Shown in pieces: positions 18,070-61,257 of a stretch of DNA of 64,000 nucleotides (the first letter of the stretch is position 1; every line of letters begins with the position of its first letter). A model generated the notes under the pieces. That model saw only the letters and a program-made list of their open reading frames with translations. It ran no database searches and was not told the origin of the DNA. The translations under genes were made by a program, and so were the position numbers. This DNA comes from Anaerotignum propionicum DSM 1682. GTDB taxonomy: Bacteria > Bacillota > Clostridia > Lachnospirales > Anaerotignaceae. The DNA lies in NCBI RefSeq assembly GCF_001561955.1, contig NZ_CP014223.1, positions 248,001 to 312,000 on the forward strand, given 5' to 3'.

Positions 18070-18350
18070 CAATCAAAAAACCGCCCTTCATAAAATTACA
18101 AAGGACGGCTATTCACCGTGTTACCACCTTAATTCGCCTTTTCCTCACGAAAAAGACCTCACTAGGTACAATCGTACCTTTGCGCTTTAACGGGCGCACC
18201 CGTCGCAGCCTAAAGAAACGGATTCTTTTCGGTGCGCGGCTCCAAGACCATATTCAACAACTGCTCCTGTACCTTTTTTCAGCGAAGGCAAAATATGCCT
18301 TTAAGGCTCTCTTTTACATAGCGTGTTTGTTTACTCTTCTTTTCATAGCC
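18070..18350 (-). promoter_or_regulatory. T-box riboswitch, methionine specific
   Basis: On the minus strand the T-box core AAGGTGGTAACACGGTGA lies at 18130-18113. It is followed by a terminator stem with CCGTCC and GGGCGG (18081-18109) and a run of six U. The specifier is read as AUG at 18251-18249, in the context GAAU-AUG-G on the 3' side of the stem I bulge. This fits the gene it precedes. The large paired domains upstream of the core extend to about 18350. Confidence 0.9.
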
Positions 18351-18430
18351 AGTTTATCATATATAGGATTTTACTATAACTCAAAGAACTCTGTCAACAA
18401 TAAAGCCCAGGTTTTCTACTTTTTTCCCTA

Positions 18431-25095: not shown

Positions 25096-25370
25096 AATAA
25101 ACCGATGAGGGAGAAGAGTACTTTCAAAAAGAAACAACAGAGAGTTGCCGTGGGTGGAAAGGCAGCGTAGATTTTTGAAAGGAATGGACTCCTGAGGGCG
25201 CGCAGAACCTTAAGTATGCAAGCCGGAGCAGATACTCCGTTACCAACGAGGGCATATGTTCGTATGTCAAGAGAGGGTACTTTTTAGTACCAAGCCGGGT
25301 GGCACCGCAGGAGTGAATTGTTGCTCTTGTCCCTGCAAAGAAATTTGTTGGGACAGGAGCTTTTTTATTG
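25096..25370 (+). promoter_or_regulatory. T-box riboswitch, tryptophan specific
   Basis: The T-box core AGCCGGGTGGCACCGC lies at 25293-25308. A terminator stem, GCTCTTGTCCC (25323-25333) with GGGACAGGAGC (25350-25360), is followed by six U. The specifier reads UGG at 25185-25187 in the context GGAA-UGG-AC on the 3' side of stem I. Uncharged tRNA-Trp should therefore switch on the downstream tryptophan synthase beta gene. Confidence 0.93.
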
Positions 25371-30155: not shown

Positions 30156-31085
30156 TTAACGTTCCTCTCTGAAATAGGGATTGGTTAAATCAGCAGGAGG
30201 CAAATCTTCTTTTTTATTTTTTCTTGTACTGATAATTACAATGATAATGGTTGCCGCATAGGGAAGCATGTCAATCAAGTATTGAGAAATCTGGATTCCC
30301 ATGCTCTGCAAGCGGAAACCCAAAATGGATAAACCGCCGAACAAGAATGCGCCAAGCATTGCCTTGACTGGGTTCCAAGAAGCGAAAATTACCAACGCAA
30401 CAGCAATCCAACCACGTCCGGAGATAATATGCTCCTGCCAAACGGGAACCGTCACCAGAGACATATAAGCACCGCCTAAACCGCACAAAGCGCCGCCCAA
30501 AAGGATGTGAACGTATTTATAAAGGGTTACGTTAATGCCTGAGGCATCCGCCGCCGCCGCACTTTCTCCCACAGCCCGAAGGTTTAAGCCTTTTTTGGTG
30601 CGGAATAGATAGTAGGTTGCGGCGATGATGGTAATGTAACCAAAGTAAACAAAAATATCTTGTTTAAATAAAATTTCTCCAATATAAGGAATAGAGGATA
30701 GACCGGGAATTGGTCTTGCCGCAAAAAAGCTTTTGATATCCCCGGGAACGATGGAGCCCATCACTCTCTGTCCTAAGAAACTGGCAAAGCCTTCACCGAA
30801 AATAGTCAGAGTCAAGCCGCAAACCGTTTGATTCACCCGAAGGGATACGGTTAGAAAGGCGTAAAGCAAAGCACCGATTCCCCCGGATAAAACTGCGCCC
30901 ATCATGGCAAGTAAAGGATTATGGGTATTCAAGCCAACAATAAACCCGACGATAGCACCCATATACATCATACCCTCTACACCAAGGTTTAGATGGCCTG
31001 CCTTTTCGGAGAAAATTTCGCCTAAGGTGGCGAAAAGAAGAGGGGTACCCGCTATGATTGCAGCGGAAAGAAAACCAACTAACAT
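30156..31085 (-). CDS. nupQ: BMP-type nucleoside ABC transporter, permease 2
   Basis: A 309-residue inner membrane permease of the BPD_transp_2 family with about eight to ten membrane segments. It has the family stretch GEIFSEKAGHLNLGVEGMMY near the N-terminus, and ATYYLFRTKKGLNLRAVGES as the cytoplasmic coupling loop that contacts the ATPase. It is last of four genes in the order binding protein, ATPase, permease, permease, as in the Bacillus nupNOPQ guanosine system. Nucleoside uptake is inferred from family and from xpt upstream. Confidence 0.9.
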   Translation of the reverse strand: MLVGFLSAAIIAGTPLLFATLGEIFSEKAGHLNLGVEGMMYMGAIVGFIVGLNTHNPLLAMMGAVLSGGIGALLYAFLTVSLRVNQTVCGLTLTIFGEGFASFLGQRVMGSIVPGDIKSFFAARPIPGLSSIPYIGEILFKQDIFVYFGYITIIAATYYLFRTKKGLNLRAVGESAAAADASGINVTLYKYVHILLGGALCGLGGAYMSLVTVPVWQEHIISGRGWIAVALVIFASWNPVKAMLGAFLFGGLSILGFRLQSMGIQISQYLIDMLPYAATIIIVIISTRKNKKEDLPPADLTNPYFREER

Positions 31086-31086
31086 C

Positions 31087-32163
31087 TTATTTCGCCTCCT
31101 TTTTTACTTTTATATATTTATGGAACTGCACTTTATATTGCAGGAAAAATTCACTGCCCAATACGAAGAACAGAATAATTGCCTGAATCATATCTGCAAC
31201 GGAGGCAGGAACCTGCATGGAGATTTGAATATAGTTTCCTCCCTGCACCAATATGGCAAAGGCGATACAGACAAATAGTGTGGCAATGGCATTTAAGCCA
31301 GCAAGCCAAGTTGTAATGATCGCTGTAAAGCCGTAATTAGCGGAAAGGGAAGCAGACAGTGTTTTCTCAACTGCTGATGCCTGAATCATACCTGTTAAAC
31401 CGCAAAGACCACCGGAAAGCAGCATAGAGATAATGATAACGGAGGAGATATTCATGCCAGCATAGCGGGCAGTTTCAATGCTTTCTCCAACGACGGAGAT
31501 TTCATAGCCTTTTTTCGTGTGGTTCAAGAAAACATAGACCAAAACCACTAATATCAAGGCAATGATCCATCCCATATGCACCCCGCCAATGGAGGGGAGG
31601 ATGGCATCATTAGAGAAAGTTGCAATTTTGGGAAAGCCTTGAGAAGCAGGATCCTTCCAAGGGCCATACTGCAAATAGGTGACAAATTTAATTGCCAGAT
31701 AGTTCAGCATTAAAGTGAAAATGGTTTCGTTTGTGCCCATTTTAGCCTTAAAGAATGCGGGAATGAAAGCCCAAAGGCCGCCCATCACCATTGCCGCAAC
31801 ACCCATGGATAAAAGCATCAAAGGTCTGGGAAGGTCAAAATTCAGTGCAACGGCAGAAGCCGCAAAGGCACCCATCATAATTTGACCCTCACCACCGATA
31901 TTCCAAAATTTCATTTTGAAGGCAACCAAAATACCTAAGGAGGTTATGACCAAAGGAATTGCCTTTAGGGTAGTTTGCTGAATACGGATTGGAGTACCCA
32001 AGGCACCTTTTACCATAGAGGTAAAGATTGTTATGGGGTTATAGCCCAAAAGGGCAATAATAAATCCTGCAAATACAATGGAAAGAGCCACAGACAGGGT
32101 GCGAATCAGTATTGCTTTATTACGGGGCAAATCATCTCGTTTTGTGATTTTCAAGGGAATCAT
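31087..32163 (-). CDS. nupP: BMP-type nucleoside ABC transporter, permease 1
   Basis: A 358-residue membrane permease, partner of the gene that follows it. Visible are the family segments FWNIGGEGQIMMGAFAA and GYEISVVGESIETARYAGMN, the latter being the coupling loop. The ATG overlaps the ATPase stop by four bases, so expression is coupled. It ends two bases before the next permease starts. Confidence 0.9.
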   Translation of the reverse strand: MIPLKITKRDDLPRNKAILIRTLSVALSIVFAGFIIALLGYNPITIFTSMVKGALGTPIRIQQTTLKAIPLVITSLGILVAFKMKFWNIGGEGQIMMGAFAASAVALNFDLPRPLMLLSMGVAAMVMGGLWAFIPAFFKAKMGTNETIFTLMLNYLAIKFVTYLQYGPWKDPASQGFPKIATFSNDAILPSIGGVHMGWIIALILVVLVYVFLNHTKKGYEISVVGESIETARYAGMNISSVIIISMLLSGGLCGLTGMIQASAVEKTLSASLSANYGFTAIITTWLAGLNAIATLFVCIAFAILVQGGNYIQISMQVPASVADMIQAIILFFVLGSEFFLQYKVQFHKYIKVKKEAK

Positions 32164-33680
32164 GATTTTACCTCCTTTTCCAATGCGCCGCCTGCCATTA
32201 AAAGGCCGATGTCTTCTTTCGTAATTTCTTCGGGGTTAACGATACCTGTCATTTTACCACCGCAAAATACCATAATTCTATCGCAAAGGGCCATCAAAAC
32301 GTCTAAATCTTCGCCGATGAACAGCACGCCGACACCCTTTTTCTTTTGCTCGTTCAATAAATCATAAATCTTATAAGACGCACCGATATCCAACCCTCTG
32401 GCAGGATAAGCGGTAATCAAAACCTTTGGATTGGAGTCAATTTCTCGACCCAAAAGAATCTTTTGGATATTACCACCGGAAAGCTTTTTGATGGGGTGGT
32501 GAACACCGGGAGTCAAAATTTCCAGTTGTTCCACCAATCGTTCTGCTTTTTTTGTACTTTCTTTTCTATGAAGGAAGAAGCCTGGCTGATTGGGATAATC
32601 ACGTAAAATCATGTTATGCACCATATCCATAGAGCCTACCAAGCCCATACCCAAACGATCCTCGGGGATAAAGCCCATGCGGATGCCCAAGCGGATAATG
32701 TCTCTAGGACTTTTTCCTAAAATATTGGCGTTTTCGAAGAAAATACGTCCCTTTTCTGCAGGAAGAAGCCCTGCAATGGTCTCGCAGATTTCCTTTTGAC
32801 CACTACCGGCTACGCCTGCAATACCTAAAATTTCACCTGCAAATAGGTCGAAGGTAATATCTTCCAAAGCATGCTTGTTTTCCTTGGTGGAAACGTGAAG
32901 ACCGTCTACCTTAAGCAAGGGATTTTCTTGGGTGCAATGGGGTTTTTCCAGCTCCAAGTCTACCTTTTTACCAACCATCATTTCAATCAGACGATTTACT
33001 TCCACATCCTTGGTTTCTACGGTTTCGATGGACTGACCACGACGCAAAACAGTGATACGATCGGAAATTTCCATAACTTCGTTCAGCTTATGGGTTATGA
33101 TAACCACAGCACAGCCTTGTTCCTTCATGTTTCTTAAAATGGCAAAAAGACGCTTGATCTCCTGAGGGGTTAGAACTGCGGTAGGCTCGTCCAAGATGAG
33201 GATTTTTGCACCACGGTACAACACCTTTATGATTTCCAGCGTCTGTTTTTCACCTACAGACATTTCATAAACTTTTTTATCCGGCTTAATATCCAGTCCA
33301 TATTGGTCACAAATGGTTTGCATCTCTTTGGTGAGCTGTTTACCACGCAAGGCGATGCCTTTGCTCCCCATGACCATATTTTCCTTTGCCGTCATAACCT
33401 CCACCAGCTTAAAGTGCTGATGAATCATACCAATGCCCAAAGCGATGGAGTCCTTGGGGGAGGAAAAATCCACTTCTTTACCCAGAATAGAAATGGAGCC
33501 GCTATCGGGAGTATAGATGCCGGAAAGCATACTCATAAGGGTACTTTTTCCGGCACCGTTTTCTCCTAATAGCGCATGAATCTCACCGTTATATACAGTG
33601 AGATTCACGTTTTCGTTCGCCTTAACGGACCCAAAAGCCTTGGAAATGCCTTTCATTTCGATTGCTTTTACGGGTTCCAT
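32160..33680 (-). CDS. nupO: BMP-type nucleoside ABC transporter, double ATPase
   Basis: A 506-residue protein with two fused ABC ATPase domains, the layout of sugar and nucleoside importers. The first domain has Walker A LLGENGAGKSTLMS, signature MSVGEKQTLE and Walker B ILILDEPTAVL. The second has the altered nucleotide loop GVAGSGQKE, signature LSGGNIQK and the degenerate Walker B VLITAYPARGLD, so the second site is probably weak or inactive, as usual for the family. It drives uptake with the two permeases encoded downstream. Confidence 0.93.
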   Translation of the reverse strand: MEPVKAIEMKGISKAFGSVKANENVNLTVYNGEIHALLGENGAGKSTLMSMLSGIYTPDSGSISILGKEVDFSSPKDSIALGIGMIHQHFKLVEVMTAKENMVMGSKGIALRGKQLTKEMQTICDQYGLDIKPDKKVYEMSVGEKQTLEIIKVLYRGAKILILDEPTAVLTPQEIKRLFAILRNMKEQGCAVVIITHKLNEVMEISDRITVLRRGQSIETVETKDVEVNRLIEMMVGKKVDLELEKPHCTQENPLLKVDGLHVSTKENKHALEDITFDLFAGEILGIAGVAGSGQKEICETIAGLLPAEKGRIFFENANILGKSPRDIIRLGIRMGFIPEDRLGMGLVGSMDMVHNMILRDYPNQPGFFLHRKESTKKAERLVEQLEILTPGVHHPIKKLSGGNIQKILLGREIDSNPKVLITAYPARGLDIGASYKIYDLLNEQKKKGVGVLFIGEDLDVLMALCDRIMVFCGGKMTGIVNPEEITKEDIGLLMAGGALEKEVKS

Positions 33681-33721
33681 ATTTTTTTCTCCTAGTATTT
33701 TCTAAAGGAAGTACTGATTTC

Positions 33722-34843
33722 TTAGTTTACAGCGGAAACGCCTTTTACTAAGCTCTGCATTACTGTCCAAATGCCTGCTCTGTCAAGAGTTTCGCCTTCT
33801 TTAACCAGTACATTTCCCTTTGTATCATAGATAGGTCCAACGAATACTGGGTATTCGCCAGCTTCCATTTTTGCTGCAACTTCGTTTACCTTAGCCTGAA
33901 CTTCAGGAGGTACCAAATCTGTCATAGGTGCAAGGCCAACATAGCCGTCTTTCATTGTACCGTAGTAAGATTCGGGAACATAGGTACCAGCAATGATTTT
34001 TTCAATAGTAGGTACCAAATATTTATCGTGGTGCCAAACGGGAGCTGTTAAGAAAGCACCGGGAACGATTTCAGAGTTATCCAAGTTATAGCCGATTGCA
34101 AGCTTGCCAGCTGCTTCTGCTGCCAGCTGAGGGCCTGCGGAGTCAGCATGCTGTGTGATAATATCGCAATCCTGAGCCAACAAGGATTCTGCGGCTGCTT
34201 TTTCACCAGCGGGATCGCCCCAGCTATTGGTGTAAACAACCTTAACCTCTGCGTCGGGGTTTACGCTCTGTGCGCCCAATGCGAAGGCATCAATACCAAT
34301 GTGTACTTCTGTATAAGGGAAAGCTGCAACATAGCCCAGCTTATTTGTTTTTGTCATCATACCCGCAATCATACCGGTCAGGTATCTAGGTTCTTCCATG
34401 GCACCGAAGTAGTTGCCAAAGTTTTTGTCGTTCATTTTGTTGCCGGAGAAATGCAAGAAGGTTACATCAGGATATTCTGTTGCCAATTCATCCAAAGCAT
34501 CCATGAAGCCGAAGCTTGTACCAATGATAATGGTAGCGCCTTGGTCAATCATATTCATTGCTGTGGTTTTAACAGTTTGCTTTTCTTCAGATACGTTTTC
34601 AGCAATAATGGTTTCTACCTTATCGCCAAAGTATTCCTGTACAGCCTTTGTACCGTTATGCTGTGCCTGAGAATAGCCACCGTCATTCTGGGAGCCGATG
34701 TAGATAAAGCCTACCTTTGTTGCCTCTGCTGCTGGAGCCTCTGCGTTCTCTGCGGGTTTGGTATTACCACCACAGCCAACCAGAGCTGTCATGGACATTG
34801 CTACTGCCAACGTCAACGCCAAAAATTTTGTTAACTTTTTCAT
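33722..34843 (-). CDS. bmpA: BMP-family nucleoside-binding lipoprotein
   Basis: Extracytoplasmic binding protein that delivers nucleosides to the ABC importer encoded downstream. The 373-residue precursor has a lipoprotein signal peptide with lipobox ALVGC (cysteine near residue 24). The mature part shows VGFIYIGSQNDGGYSQAQ, the first strand of the BMP fold, and FPYTEVHIGIDAFALGAQSV. ATG 34843 is preceded by AAGGAGAGG. It is followed by a 41-base gap and then the ATPase gene. Confidence 0.93.
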   Translation of the reverse strand: MKKLTKFLALTLAVAMSMTALVGCGGNTKPAENAEAPAAEATKVGFIYIGSQNDGGYSQAQHNGTKAVQEYFGDKVETIIAENVSEEKQTVKTTAMNMIDQGATIIIGTSFGFMDALDELATEYPDVTFLHFSGNKMNDKNFGNYFGAMEEPRYLTGMIAGMMTKTNKLGYVAAFPYTEVHIGIDAFALGAQSVNPDAEVKVVYTNSWGDPAGEKAAAESLLAQDCDIITQHADSAGPQLAAEAAGKLAIGYNLDNSEIVPGAFLTAPVWHHDKYLVPTIEKIIAGTYVPESYYGTMKDGYVGLAPMTDLVPPEVQAKVNEVAAKMEAGEYPVFVGPIYDTKGNVLVKEGETLDRAGIWTVMQSLVKGVSAVN

Positions 34844-34977: not shown

Positions 34978-35553
34978 TTAATCTTTAAAATAGATTTTTC
35001 CGTCCTCAATGTTTGTAATGACAGCTAGGGAGTCAACGTAATAACCCAAATCCCTTAGCTTTTTACTCCCACCTTGAAATTCCTTTTCCACAATTGCTGC
35101 GATGCCGCATACCGTTCCGCCTGCTTGCTCAACAAGGTTTGCAAGACCTGCAGCTGCTTCGCCATGGGCAAGAAAATCATCAATGATAAGAACTTTGTCA
35201 TCCTTACTCAAGTATTGCTTAGAAACCTTGGCAATGGAAACAGTGCCCTTTGTAAAAGATTTTACGGGTGCACCGTAGAAGTCCTCATTCATTGTGCTGG
35301 GTTGAGCTTTTTTTGCAAAAACAACAGGCACTAGATCGAAATAAATGGCTGCTATGGCGGCAATGCCAATACCGGAGGCTTCAATGGTGAGAATTTTGTT
35401 GATTCCCATGTTCCCGAAGCGGCGATAAATCTCTTTGCCTAATGCCATAAATAAGCCAATATCCAACTGGTGATTCAAAAAAGAATCCACCTTAACGATC
35501 TCCGTGCCTATTTCTGTTCCGTCGTTGATAATTCTGCGTTTTAACAATTCCAT
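34978..35553 (-). CDS. xpt: Xanthine phosphoribosyltransferase
   Basis: Converts xanthine and PRPP to XMP in purine salvage. The 191-residue length and the PRPP-binding motif VLIIDDFLAHGEA near residue 125 match Xpt. The opening MELLKRRIINDGTEIG is also typical. It lies 134 bases upstream of the nucleoside-binding lipoprotein on the same strand, so import and salvage are linked. In Bacillus, xpt is controlled by a guanine riboswitch. I could not find one here. Confidence 0.93.
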   Translation of the reverse strand: MELLKRRIINDGTEIGTEIVKVDSFLNHQLDIGLFMALGKEIYRRFGNMGINKILTIEASGIGIAAIAAIYFDLVPVVFAKKAQPSTMNEDFYGAPVKSFTKGTVSIAKVSKQYLSKDDKVLIIDDFLAHGEAAAGLANLVEQAGGTVCGIAAIVEKEFQGGSKKLRDLGYYVDSLAVITNIEDGKIYFKD

Positions 35554-36883: not shown

Positions 36884-37019
36884 TTTCGTTGACTTGACTT
36901 TTTTCCTGTGATACCATCAGTATAGAAGGAAGAGTATAGACTCTTTATAAAAATATCAGCTTGACAGAAGGAAATGCCATTATTTATTAGGATGTATCGT
37001 ATACTATAATAAATAAAAC

Positions 37020-37137
37020 AATTCTTCGGAAATGGGAGATACCATACCGGCGGTAAAAGCCCGCGAGCTAAGGCAAAGGCCAAGGCATGATTCGTTGAAA
37101 TGCGAAGCCGACAGTCAGTCTGGATGAGAGAAGAAGG
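37020..37137 (+). promoter_or_regulatory. FMN riboswitch (RFN element)
   Basis: The conserved core is all present: ACCGGCGGTAAAAGCCCGCGAGC near 37041-37068 in two parts, then AAGCCGACAGTCAGTCTGGA near 37106-37125, ending GATGAGAGAAGAAG. The closing stem P1 pairs TTCTTC (37022-37027) with GAAGAA (37130-37135). It precedes a terminator and then a MATE transporter gene, so FMN should shut that gene off. Confidence 0.96.
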
Positions 37138-37190
37138 TTACTGAACACTCACGGTGGTGGGGTGCCTTTTTCTGCGAAAAAATTGATGGG

Positions 37191-37235
37191 AAAAAGCATT
37201 CTACCCCAAATTGGGCAGGATGCTTTTTATTTTTA
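37191..37235 (+). terminator. Terminator of the FMN riboswitch
   Basis: AAAAAGCATTCTACCC pairs with GGGCAGGATGCTTTTT, with small mismatches, and runs into TATTTTT. It sits 55 bases after the aptamer and 100 before the gene, as expected for transcriptional control. Confidence 0.85.
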
Positions 37236-37328
37236 AAACGAAAATATTTATATTTATGGTACAGATGTCAATTTGATACTATTTAGGGTTGCATGTTTTG
37301 TATGCTGTTTTTTCAAGGGGGCGTTGGT

Positions 37329-38726
37329 ATGGCACAGGAAAATAAACTGGGGACAGAAAAAATTGGGAAGCTTTTGGTTCAATTCTCCGTTCCCACAGCA
37401 CTGACTTTAATTGTAAACAGCTTATATAATATTGTAGATCAAATTTTTATTGGGCATGCTGTGGGGATTGATGGTGTGGCGGCAACAAACGTTGCATTTC
37501 CCCTGTTTATTCTGACTGCGGCATTGGCCTTGATGATTGGTGATGGGTGTGCAGCAAATATCAGCCTTGCCTTGGGGCGTAAGGAAGAAGAAGCGGTAGA
37601 GCGGTTTTTTGCCAATGGTCTGCTCTTGCTTTTTTTGGCGGGGATTGGCGTTTCTATTGTTGGAATGGTATTTTTAAAACCGCTGCTGTTATTTTTTGGT
37701 GCTTCTACTTCAGTTCTGGATATTTCTGCGGAATATACGAAAATTTTATTATGGGGCATACCATTTTCTGTTTTGACCATGGCTCTTACGGCGGTGATTC
37801 GGGCGGATGGTAATCCCCGCTACATGATGCGCACCATGATGCTTGGGGCGGCAATTAATTTGATTTTAGACCCTATTTTCATTTTGGGATTTCAAATGGG
37901 AGTGAAAGGGGCGGCTTTGGCAACAATTATTGGTCAATTTGTTTCGGGAAGCCTTGCTTTAGCGTACATTCCCAGAATGGAGCATATTCGTTTTTGCAAA
38001 GATAAAATGGCCTTAGAAGGGAAATATGTGCTCGGCATTTTTAAACTGGGTTTCCCCAGCTTTTGCATGCAGACTGCCACGGCAGCAACCCAAATTGTGA
38101 TGTATAATTTAATGCGTAAGTATGGGGCGCTCACTATCTATGGAAGTGAAATTGCACTATCTGCCTATGGAGTTATGACAAAGCTATATCAGATCGCCCA
38201 TGCAATGTTTGTAGGACTTGCAGCGGGGACACAGCCCATTCATGGATTTAATTTTGGTGCAAAACAGTTTGACCGTGTTCGTCAAACCTATCGTATTGGT
38301 TTTTTTGCATCTCTTGTTATTTCTTTTGTTTGGTTTGGAATTTTTCGCTGGGGTGGTGCATTTATTGCGGAAATTTTTGTGCAGGATGAGCCATTGTTTT
38401 TGGAATTTACAGAGTATTGTTTTCGGGCTTATATGCTTGCTTTCTTCTTATACGGTCCACCCCAGGTTACTGCATCCTTCTTTCAGGCCATAGGCAAGCC
38501 CATGAAAGCCCTTTTGGTTGCGTTGGCCAGACAAGTGCTGTTTTTGATTCCCATGGCTCTGCTGCTGTCACAAAGAGGAGGGATGGATGGTGCACTGAAT
38601 GCCGCACCTATCGCAGATACCTTGGCATTTTTATTGGCAATGGCGTTGGTTTCTTATGAGTTTTACAGTTGGAGGAAGATCAGCAATATAGCAGAAGCAA
38701 GAGATCATTATAACGGTGAAGCATAA
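37329..38726 (+). CDS. MATE-family transporter under FMN control
   Basis: A 465-residue, 12-segment membrane transporter of the MATE family, usually a sodium- or proton-driven exporter. It opens KLGTEKIGKLLVQFSVPTAL, and the two halves are related, as usual (PTALTLIVNSLYNIVDQIFIG and the later PSFCMQTATAATQIVMYN). I chose ATG 37329 after AAGGGGG; an earlier in-frame codon lacks a site. The FMN riboswitch upstream implies a flavin-related substrate, either uptake of riboflavin or export of a flavin or toxic analogue. FMN repression fits uptake better, since importers such as RibU are controlled this way. The direction is inference. Confidence 0.9.
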   Translation: MAQENKLGTEKIGKLLVQFSVPTALTLIVNSLYNIVDQIFIGHAVGIDGVAATNVAFPLFILTAALALMIGDGCAANISLALGRKEEEAVERFFANGLLLLFLAGIGVSIVGMVFLKPLLLFFGASTSVLDISAEYTKILLWGIPFSVLTMALTAVIRADGNPRYMMRTMMLGAAINLILDPIFILGFQMGVKGAALATIIGQFVSGSLALAYIPRMEHIRFCKDKMALEGKYVLGIFKLGFPSFCMQTATAATQIVMYNLMRKYGALTIYGSEIALSAYGVMTKLYQIAHAMFVGLAAGTQPIHGFNFGAKQFDRVRQTYRIGFFASLVISFVWFGIFRWGGAFIAEIFVQDEPLFLEFTEYCFRAYMLAFFLYGPPQVTASFFQAIGKPMKALLVALARQVLFLIPMALLLSQRGGMDGALNAAPIADTLAFLLAMALVSYEFYSWRKISNIAEARDHYNGEA

Positions 38727-61044: not shown

Positions 61045-61257
61045 ATTGAATAACTGCAATGAAAAAGAGGAGTATCCGTAGTATGTTTTCAGAGAGTCTT
61101 CGGTGGGTGAAAAGAAGACAGCAGAGTACGGTGAAGGGCACTTTGGAGCAGGACTTCACAAGAGTGGATTTACGCTTTGCGTAGATCAATAAGGGTGGAA
61201 CCGCGGAAGATAGACTTTCGTCCCTTGCTTTTACAGCGAGGGAGGGGAGTTTTTTTA
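61045..61257 (+). promoter_or_regulatory. T-box riboswitch, glycine specific
   Basis: The core AGGGTGGAACCGCGG lies at 61192-61206. The terminator pairs TCCCTTGCT with AGCGAGGGA (61221-61243), followed by seven U. The specifier reads GGC at 61137-61139 in the context GUGAAG-GGC-AC. This is a short glycine-type T-box, and it fits the glycyl-tRNA synthetase downstream. Confidence 0.92.

Follow-up and report, generated by a model that had tools for sequence, protein, structure and literature searches.

A variant FMN riboswitch with an altered side-chain pocket precedes a putative flavin-exporting MATE transporter in Anaerotignum propionicum and its relatives

What variant FMN riboswitches bind in nature was reportedly left open by Atilho, Perkins and Breaker in 2019, whose abstract is said to name transporters, multidrug efflux pumps among them. 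Passages of PMC11477304 and of PMC9788692 both cite that work (RNA 25:23) for the variants. The closest described system is that of C. difficile, in which, according to passages of PMC11477304, a variant (subtype 2) precedes an EmrB/QacA pump, acts as a transcriptional ON switch and binds lumichrome and lumiflavin, with no binding of FMN; riboflavin is also bound by variant FMN riboswitches, as stated in an excerpt of PMC9788692. The protein under the C. difficile variant, the MFS transporter RibZ, improved the growth of an E. coli riboflavin auxotroph when riboflavin was scarce (excerpt of PMC4418817), a result that would fit uptake or a two-way carrier and that counts against an export reading. 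As for the canonical aptamer, an excerpt of PMC7824784 has the flavin ring sandwiched by A48 and the A85-G98 pair, with a bond to A99, and the side chains between G10, G11 and G62; the side-chain site is described there as promiscuous in canonical RNAs, which counts against the reading preferred below.

Here, I describe a locus of Anaerotignum propionicum DSM 1682 that lies in a window of 64,000 nucleotides (positions 248,001 to 312,000 of the forward strand of NZ_CP014223.1), to which all coordinates refer unless a locus is named. On the plus strand, 37018-37139 matches RF00050 over model positions 1-138, that is, at full length (cmscan, 68.7 bits, E 1.8e-13, above the cut-off of 66.2 bits), and the RNA is a member of that family. 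A variant aptamer model of my own (R1), built from 23 sequences including the window's, gives 106.6 bits at 37022-37135, as expected with the window among its building sequences. Downstream, on the same strand, follow an intrinsic terminator, made of a hairpin at about 37191-37228 (-17.5 kcal/mol) and a T-rich tail (37191-37234 in all), and a gene of 465 codons for a MATE family transporter (37329-38726). Its product carries MatE domains (PF01554, E 3.1e-41, in two stretches), scores above the cut-off of TIGR00797, matches the structure 4lz6 with E 1e-65, and belongs to the MATE family. Translation more likely starts at the ATG at 37329, which has AAGGGGG ahead of it, than at 37293, where the mechanical ORF begins.

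The gene has a zinc-ribbon protein gene on one side and a polysaccharide-deacetylase gene on the other (Pfam), and among the ORFs between 28 and 47 kb, whose translations were read by eye, with seven proteins run through Pfam, none was recognised as a rib gene. An FMN-type aptamer and terminator preceding a MATE gene, with no riboflavin gene near, are what an earlier note on this DNA had reported, and in this it is borne out. It had also called the aptamer a complete FMN aptamer: the fold is complete and the match full-length, but the sequence is that of a divergent variant. The promoter scan returned 2 sites where shuffles predict 1.3, and neither of them adjoins the aptamer on the plus strand; a TATAAT lies upstream of the aptamer at 37005-37010. 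The terminator scan missed the 37191-37228 hairpin and gave a 5-pair stem at 37148-37161 (plus) and another call at 37218-37201 on the other strand.

Elsewhere in the window there are three T-box leaders, at 25096-25337 (plus), 61050-61228 (plus) and 18098-18355 (minus), and a set of BMP/PnrA-type ABC transporter genes at 30156-34843 (minus), near a phosphoribosyltransferase gene, with 34978-35553 (minus) in the same neighbourhood. These ABC genes probably serve purine nucleoside uptake. RfuA, the spirochaete riboflavin importer, is likewise of BMP type; as a part of the present system, however, the operon (30156-34843, minus) was rejected, for it lies on the opposite strand and beside the phosphoribosyltransferase gene.

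The source genome, as covered by one contig of 3.12 Mb, contains two more FMN riboswitches, both canonical (115.8 and 111.3 bits), which lead an ECF riboflavin transporter component (PF07155, ribU) and RibD (PF01872). That the genome keeps canonical ribU and ribD switches was counted in favour of a non-FMN role of the variant.

Aptamer positions are numbered here in what I take to be the scheme of the F. nucleatum aptamer. When aligned with canonical aptamers, the window segment past the 5' strand of P1 (positions 9-13; 37028-37032, plus) reads GGAAA, as against AGGGC or GGGGC. Position 11 is A in 33/33 distinct variant aptamers, the window's included, which represent 34 variant loci, and G in 76/76 canonical ones. 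Positions 12 and 13 are A in all 33 variants each, and 11-13 is mostly GGC in canonical aptamers (position 12 is G in 75/76, position 13 is C in 62/76). Since the sorting into variant and canonical required A at positions 11 and 12 among the loci fetched, what matters is the difference in downstream gene between the sets so obtained. The ring contacts A48, A85, G98 and A99, places that stood outside the sorting criteria except via loose anchor motifs, are unchanged in all 33 variants (A48 is A in 75/76 canonical aptamers). The four being kept with AAA at 11-13, the ring pocket is retained and the side-chain pocket altered. The window aptamer lacks the conserved G11 of canonical FMN sensing, and it fits the C. 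difficile type of variant FMN riboswitch, with the ring pocket kept and the side-chain pocket changed.

Two further positions vary. At position 62, 72 of the 76 canonical aptamers have G and 4 have A, and among the 33 variants 20 have A, 12 have G and one (the window) has T, the column being uncertain by one base in the window's genus, so that counting from the following AUU gives G for the window. Position 84 is A in 7/33 variants and in 1/76 canonical aptamers; six of the seven (L010, L011, L013, L116, L117, L157) make up one branch of the MATE tree, and the seventh is L115.

The 24 variants of the window's family score 64.0-88.8 bits with Rfam; 21 are above the RF00050 cut-off of 66.2 and three (in G022, G023 and G026) fall below it, at 64.0-65.1 bits, so that annotation pipelines will miss some. 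The other FMN matches in the family reach at least 100 bits, except for four ribU switches (78.5-83.9) and two fragments. Since such low-scoring ribU switches exist, the Rfam score alone cannot tell variant from canonical; nor is an Rfam FMN match in itself evidence of FMN control.

The downstream genes separate the two sets. With the gene assigned as the best of four reference proteins over the loci fetched, a relative of the window's MATE gene follows in 28/34 variant loci and an MFS gene in 6/34, whereas the 76 canonical loci lead to ribU (46), ribD (28) or neither (2), and to MATE or MFS in no case. The pairing, sought in relatives, is thus conserved. Neither ribU nor ribD was the best match at any of the 34 variant loci, the window's gene being MATE; judged by gene identity, the window locus would not be one that controls riboflavin synthesis or uptake genes. 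A chance pairing of aptamer and gene was ruled out by the 28 conserved loci and the one MATE group.

One canonical switch has an unusual partner: at L100:1500-3119 an FMN riboswitch of 117.4 bits stands ahead of a FGGY-family carbohydrate kinase gene (PF00370, PF02782), and upstream lies an L-fucose-isomerase-like gene (PF02952); L107, listed beside it, has a canonical FMN riboswitch of 115.6 bits. An excerpt of PMC4418817 mentions a similar case in C. ljungdahlii, CLJU_c14910, a putative carbohydrate kinase with an FMN riboswitch. My guess is that the L100 kinase acts on the sugar moiety of degraded flavins.

By its signature and its gene, the variant is present in 24/58 genomes of the window's family, each of which has at least one further FMN riboswitch match. 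Beyond the family, variant and MATE gene occur together in the Oscillospirales-type records L010, L011 and L013 and in L157 (genome G683), from another family of the same order. L010, an Evtepia record, and L011, an Agathobaculum record, have near-identical MATE genes and variants (branch lengths 0.006 and 0.03), from either a recent transfer or a mislabelled assembly. The MFS-linked loci all come from one genus, with the variant in 7/8 of its genomes, and the MFS gene points to a genus of the C. difficile type; the search behind it covered 20 loci, six further places lying mostly outside the examined set. The protein downstream at L168 is MFS_1, presumably what CD3299/RibZ of C. difficile would give. 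Since these loci share AAA at positions 11-13 with the window, the latter appears to be of the kind described for C. difficile, with MATE replacing MFS.

In a tree of 67 MATE proteins, computed without L048 (86 aa in length) and without L110, whose aligned stretch contains a stop, 27 proteins with the element and 4 without it lie on one side of a branch supported at 100/100, and 36 without it on the opposite side; the element-bearing proteins form a clade if the root lies on the side of the 36. The five best matches of the window's MATE protein, at 73-78% identity, are four Anaerotignum records and one unclassified Clostridia record. As many loci were fetched via the riboswitch, the fair count of the pairing is that of the protein search, in which ten loci of the MATE group (L004-L013) have the element in six cases, a decayed aptamer in two and have lost it in two. 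In the genomes of L004 and L005 the leader holds a decayed aptamer (L121 and L120, respectively), with the switching stem and terminator still visible; L009 and L012 are MATE relatives without the element. At the other 37 loci of the search, some of them with little upstream sequence, no element was found with a strict pattern. Decay in two relatives and loss in two others indicate that riboswitch control is dispensable. The decayed variants ahead of the MATE gene lie at L120:1500-1800, on a contig of A. neopropionicum, and at L121:1490-1590 (24.5 bits with R1), and would represent riboswitch loss in progress.

Wider sampling yielded few further cases. A class sample of 391 genomes gave 25 places at E<=1e-17, with the variant signature only in the window's and in L123, and an order sample added, among the places inspected, one variant genome from outside the family (G683, L157); the places inspected there did not include most of those that had no locus fetched, which score 81.6-85.8 bits, within the canonical range. 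The searches of more than 40 genomes used stricter filters, by which weak matches were lost, and the variant counts are therefore lower bounds. A pattern scan of 398 genomes of the phylum gave 0 matches and is uninformative, as the pattern misses the window's own aptamer.

The leader itself contains mutually exclusive partners. The 3' strand of P1, with its extension AGAAGAAGG (37129-37137, plus), can pair with the end, CCUUUUUCU (37165-37173), of a switching segment X at 37155-37173 (plus), in a duplex of -12.7 kcal/mol; in the shuffle test the best duplex is -10.4 kcal/mol, as compared with a shuffle mean of -4.6 (p=0.007, 300 shuffles). X can also pair with the 5' arm of the terminator, giving an antiterminator of -15.7 kcal/mol, a value without shuffle control. 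In the computed ensemble of the transcript up to the first T-run, pairing of the terminator 3' arm is 1.00 with the P1 strand free and 0.23 with it held; at the second T-run the values are 0.70 and 0.27, shuffled P1 strands averaging 0.32, with 4/60 reaching the native value. The same kinds of duplex, formed by different sequences, recur in L006, L007, L008 and L054, the ranges over these and the window being -12.7 to -17.2 kcal/mol for X with the P1 3' strand and -9.4 to -19.4 for X with the terminator arm. In L065, L068 and L069, and by eye in L110 and L115, the P1 3' strand is itself the 5' arm of the terminator.

Over the whole set, the complementarity of the P1 strand to a 58-base downstream stretch beats dinucleotide shuffles (p<0.05) in 13/34 variants versus 2/76 canonical loci (Fisher p=2e-6, the rows being related; the canonical L083 was dropped for its short tail), and by the same shuffle test it is insignificant in 21/34 variants, the C. 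difficile-type ones among them. An automatic two-state fold of 23 variants gave ON in 8, undecided in 13 and no terminator in 2; it is a weak test, for in 10 canonical controls it gave neither ON nor OFF in any, and so recovered no OFF logic. In the window's genus it called two of five ON (the window and L007) and left L006, L008 and L054 undecided, L006 giving 0.94 versus 0.22 at another T-run. Altogether, the predicted pairings suggest an ON-switch layout of the leader for the window's genus and for some others, a reading that leaves out L057-L064, L066, L067, L073, L010, L011, L013, L116, L117, L157 and the C. difficile-type loci.

By comparison of sequences, then, the data indicate a variant pocket, a conserved pairing with one MATE group and, in the window leader, alternative pairings. 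The mechanism that I propose is as follows. With no ligand, the P1 3' strand would pair with X, the terminator would form and the MATE gene would be off; with ligand present, P1 would be held in the aptamer, X would capture the 5' arm of the terminator and the MATE gene would be read, its product then exporting the compound sensed. The aptamer would no longer make the contacts that normally hold FMN's ribityl phosphate and would retain the flavin-ring pocket, the candidate ligand being a phosphate-free flavin, that is, a breakdown product such as lumichrome or lumiflavin, possibly riboflavin. On balance, I hold it to be probable that the variant FMN riboswitch senses an unphosphorylated flavin and switches ON, and that the MATE protein exports the compound sensed. 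Export by the pump, turned on by the RNA upon an unphosphorylated flavin, would be the most likely reading of the sequences, from which I infer the identity of the ligand, ON switching in the cell, and the direction and substrate of transport.

The earlier note preferred a different logic, in which a normal FMN riboswitch represses a MATE importer of flavin once FMN is abundant. The RNA does score above the Rfam FMN cut-off and a terminator does stand ahead of the gene, and RibZ, which stands under a related variant, aided uptake by E. coli (excerpt of PMC4418817); yet all variants, and none of the canonical aptamers, have position 11 changed, ribU in the source genome is already under a canonical switch, the window leader appears to be laid out as ON, and the C. 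difficile variant is itself described as an ON switch without FMN binding (passages of PMC11477304). An importer repressed by FMN is thus very unlikely; plain FMN repression was rejected on the change at position 11, a change of the side-chain pocket shared with the MFS-linked loci, and on the ON layout of the window. Import by the MATE protein, whatever its control, would be unlikely too, from what the sequences suggest. Between the two directions that the note had considered, its export option (a flavin or a toxic analogue) is now favoured, and its view of an importer as the better fit gives way before the ON layout.

Among the readings that keep export, one has riboflavin itself as the signal and the MATE protein as an overflow valve for its surplus. 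Losing the side-chain contact would suit any unphosphorylated flavin, and variant FMN riboswitches bind riboflavin besides breakdown products (excerpt of PMC9788692), but the further FMN riboswitch match in each of the 24 family genomes would presumably already curb riboflavin, and exporting a vitamin that the cell can import through ribU seems wasteful; I regard such a valve as unlikely. Much the same likelihood attaches to a broad multidrug exporter for which the flavin signal is a proxy for another stress: it is suggested by the general MATE annotation and by the nearest solved protein being the MATE protein BH2163, and is at odds with the tie of the switch, outside the C. difficile-type genus, to one MATE group and not to assorted pumps. 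Rather more doubtful is a flavin-type antibiotic such as roseoflavin as natural ligand, with the pump conferring resistance; no pointer to roseoflavin was seen in the loci, and conservation over a MATE group from several genera suggests a widely met compound, even if the altered site is the side-chain site and MATE proteins are commonly drug exporters (TIGR00797).

Export of an unphosphorylated flavin therefore remains the preferred reading, and a wider proposal, advanced tentatively and at slightly less than even odds, is that anaerobic Clostridia have, in this MATE group, an exporter dedicated to flavin catabolites. If true, an RNA derived from the FMN riboswitch would turn it on, and the one altered pocket would drive pumps of two unrelated families, MATE and MFS. 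A pump for lumichrome-like products would fit a known flux, as a gut Lachnospiraceae species has recently been reported to turn riboflavin into lumichrome anaerobically (excerpt of the preprint PMC12934955). The 28 MATE-linked loci, some of them in cultured Anaerotignum strains, offer many aptamers and one pump group for testing, and stand beside the MFS pump of C. difficile.

Among solved MATE structures, the window protein resembles BH2163 (4lz6), with which it aligns over residues 3-441 of 465 (E 1e-65); BH2163 is, I assume, the protein also called DinF-BH, and to my knowledge no riboswitch is associated with it. E. coli YeeO, like the window protein, is MatE by Pfam and is annotated as an FMN/FAD exporter; cited also in an excerpt of PMC12934955, it provides a precedent for flavin export by a MATE protein. 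A close kinship of the two was rejected, BLASTP giving no significant match (best E 0.40), which counts against the export reading.

The earlier note foresaw a new transporter class under flavin control, beyond the known importers; passages of PMC11477304 show that control of an efflux pump by a variant FMN riboswitch has already been published. None of the titles and abstracts searched mentions a MATE gene led by a variant FMN riboswitch, and the 2019 paper may include examples. With the canonical FMN riboswitch (RF00050) on ribU and ribD, the window element shares the overall aptamer and the ring pocket, and differs from it at positions 11-13 and in its gene. With the MFS-linked, C. difficile-type loci it shares AAA at 11-13 and the ring contacts, and with the C. 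difficile variant (CD3299/RibZ) the fold, the place ahead of an exporter-type gene and, in the window, a leader apparently laid out as ON; it is unlike that system in its MATE protein in place of MFS, in the lineages concerned and in position 62, which is A in the MFS-linked loci. The kind of system, a variant FMN riboswitch with an efflux pump, has thus been described before, and the locus presented here adds a MATE pump in the place of the MFS pump.
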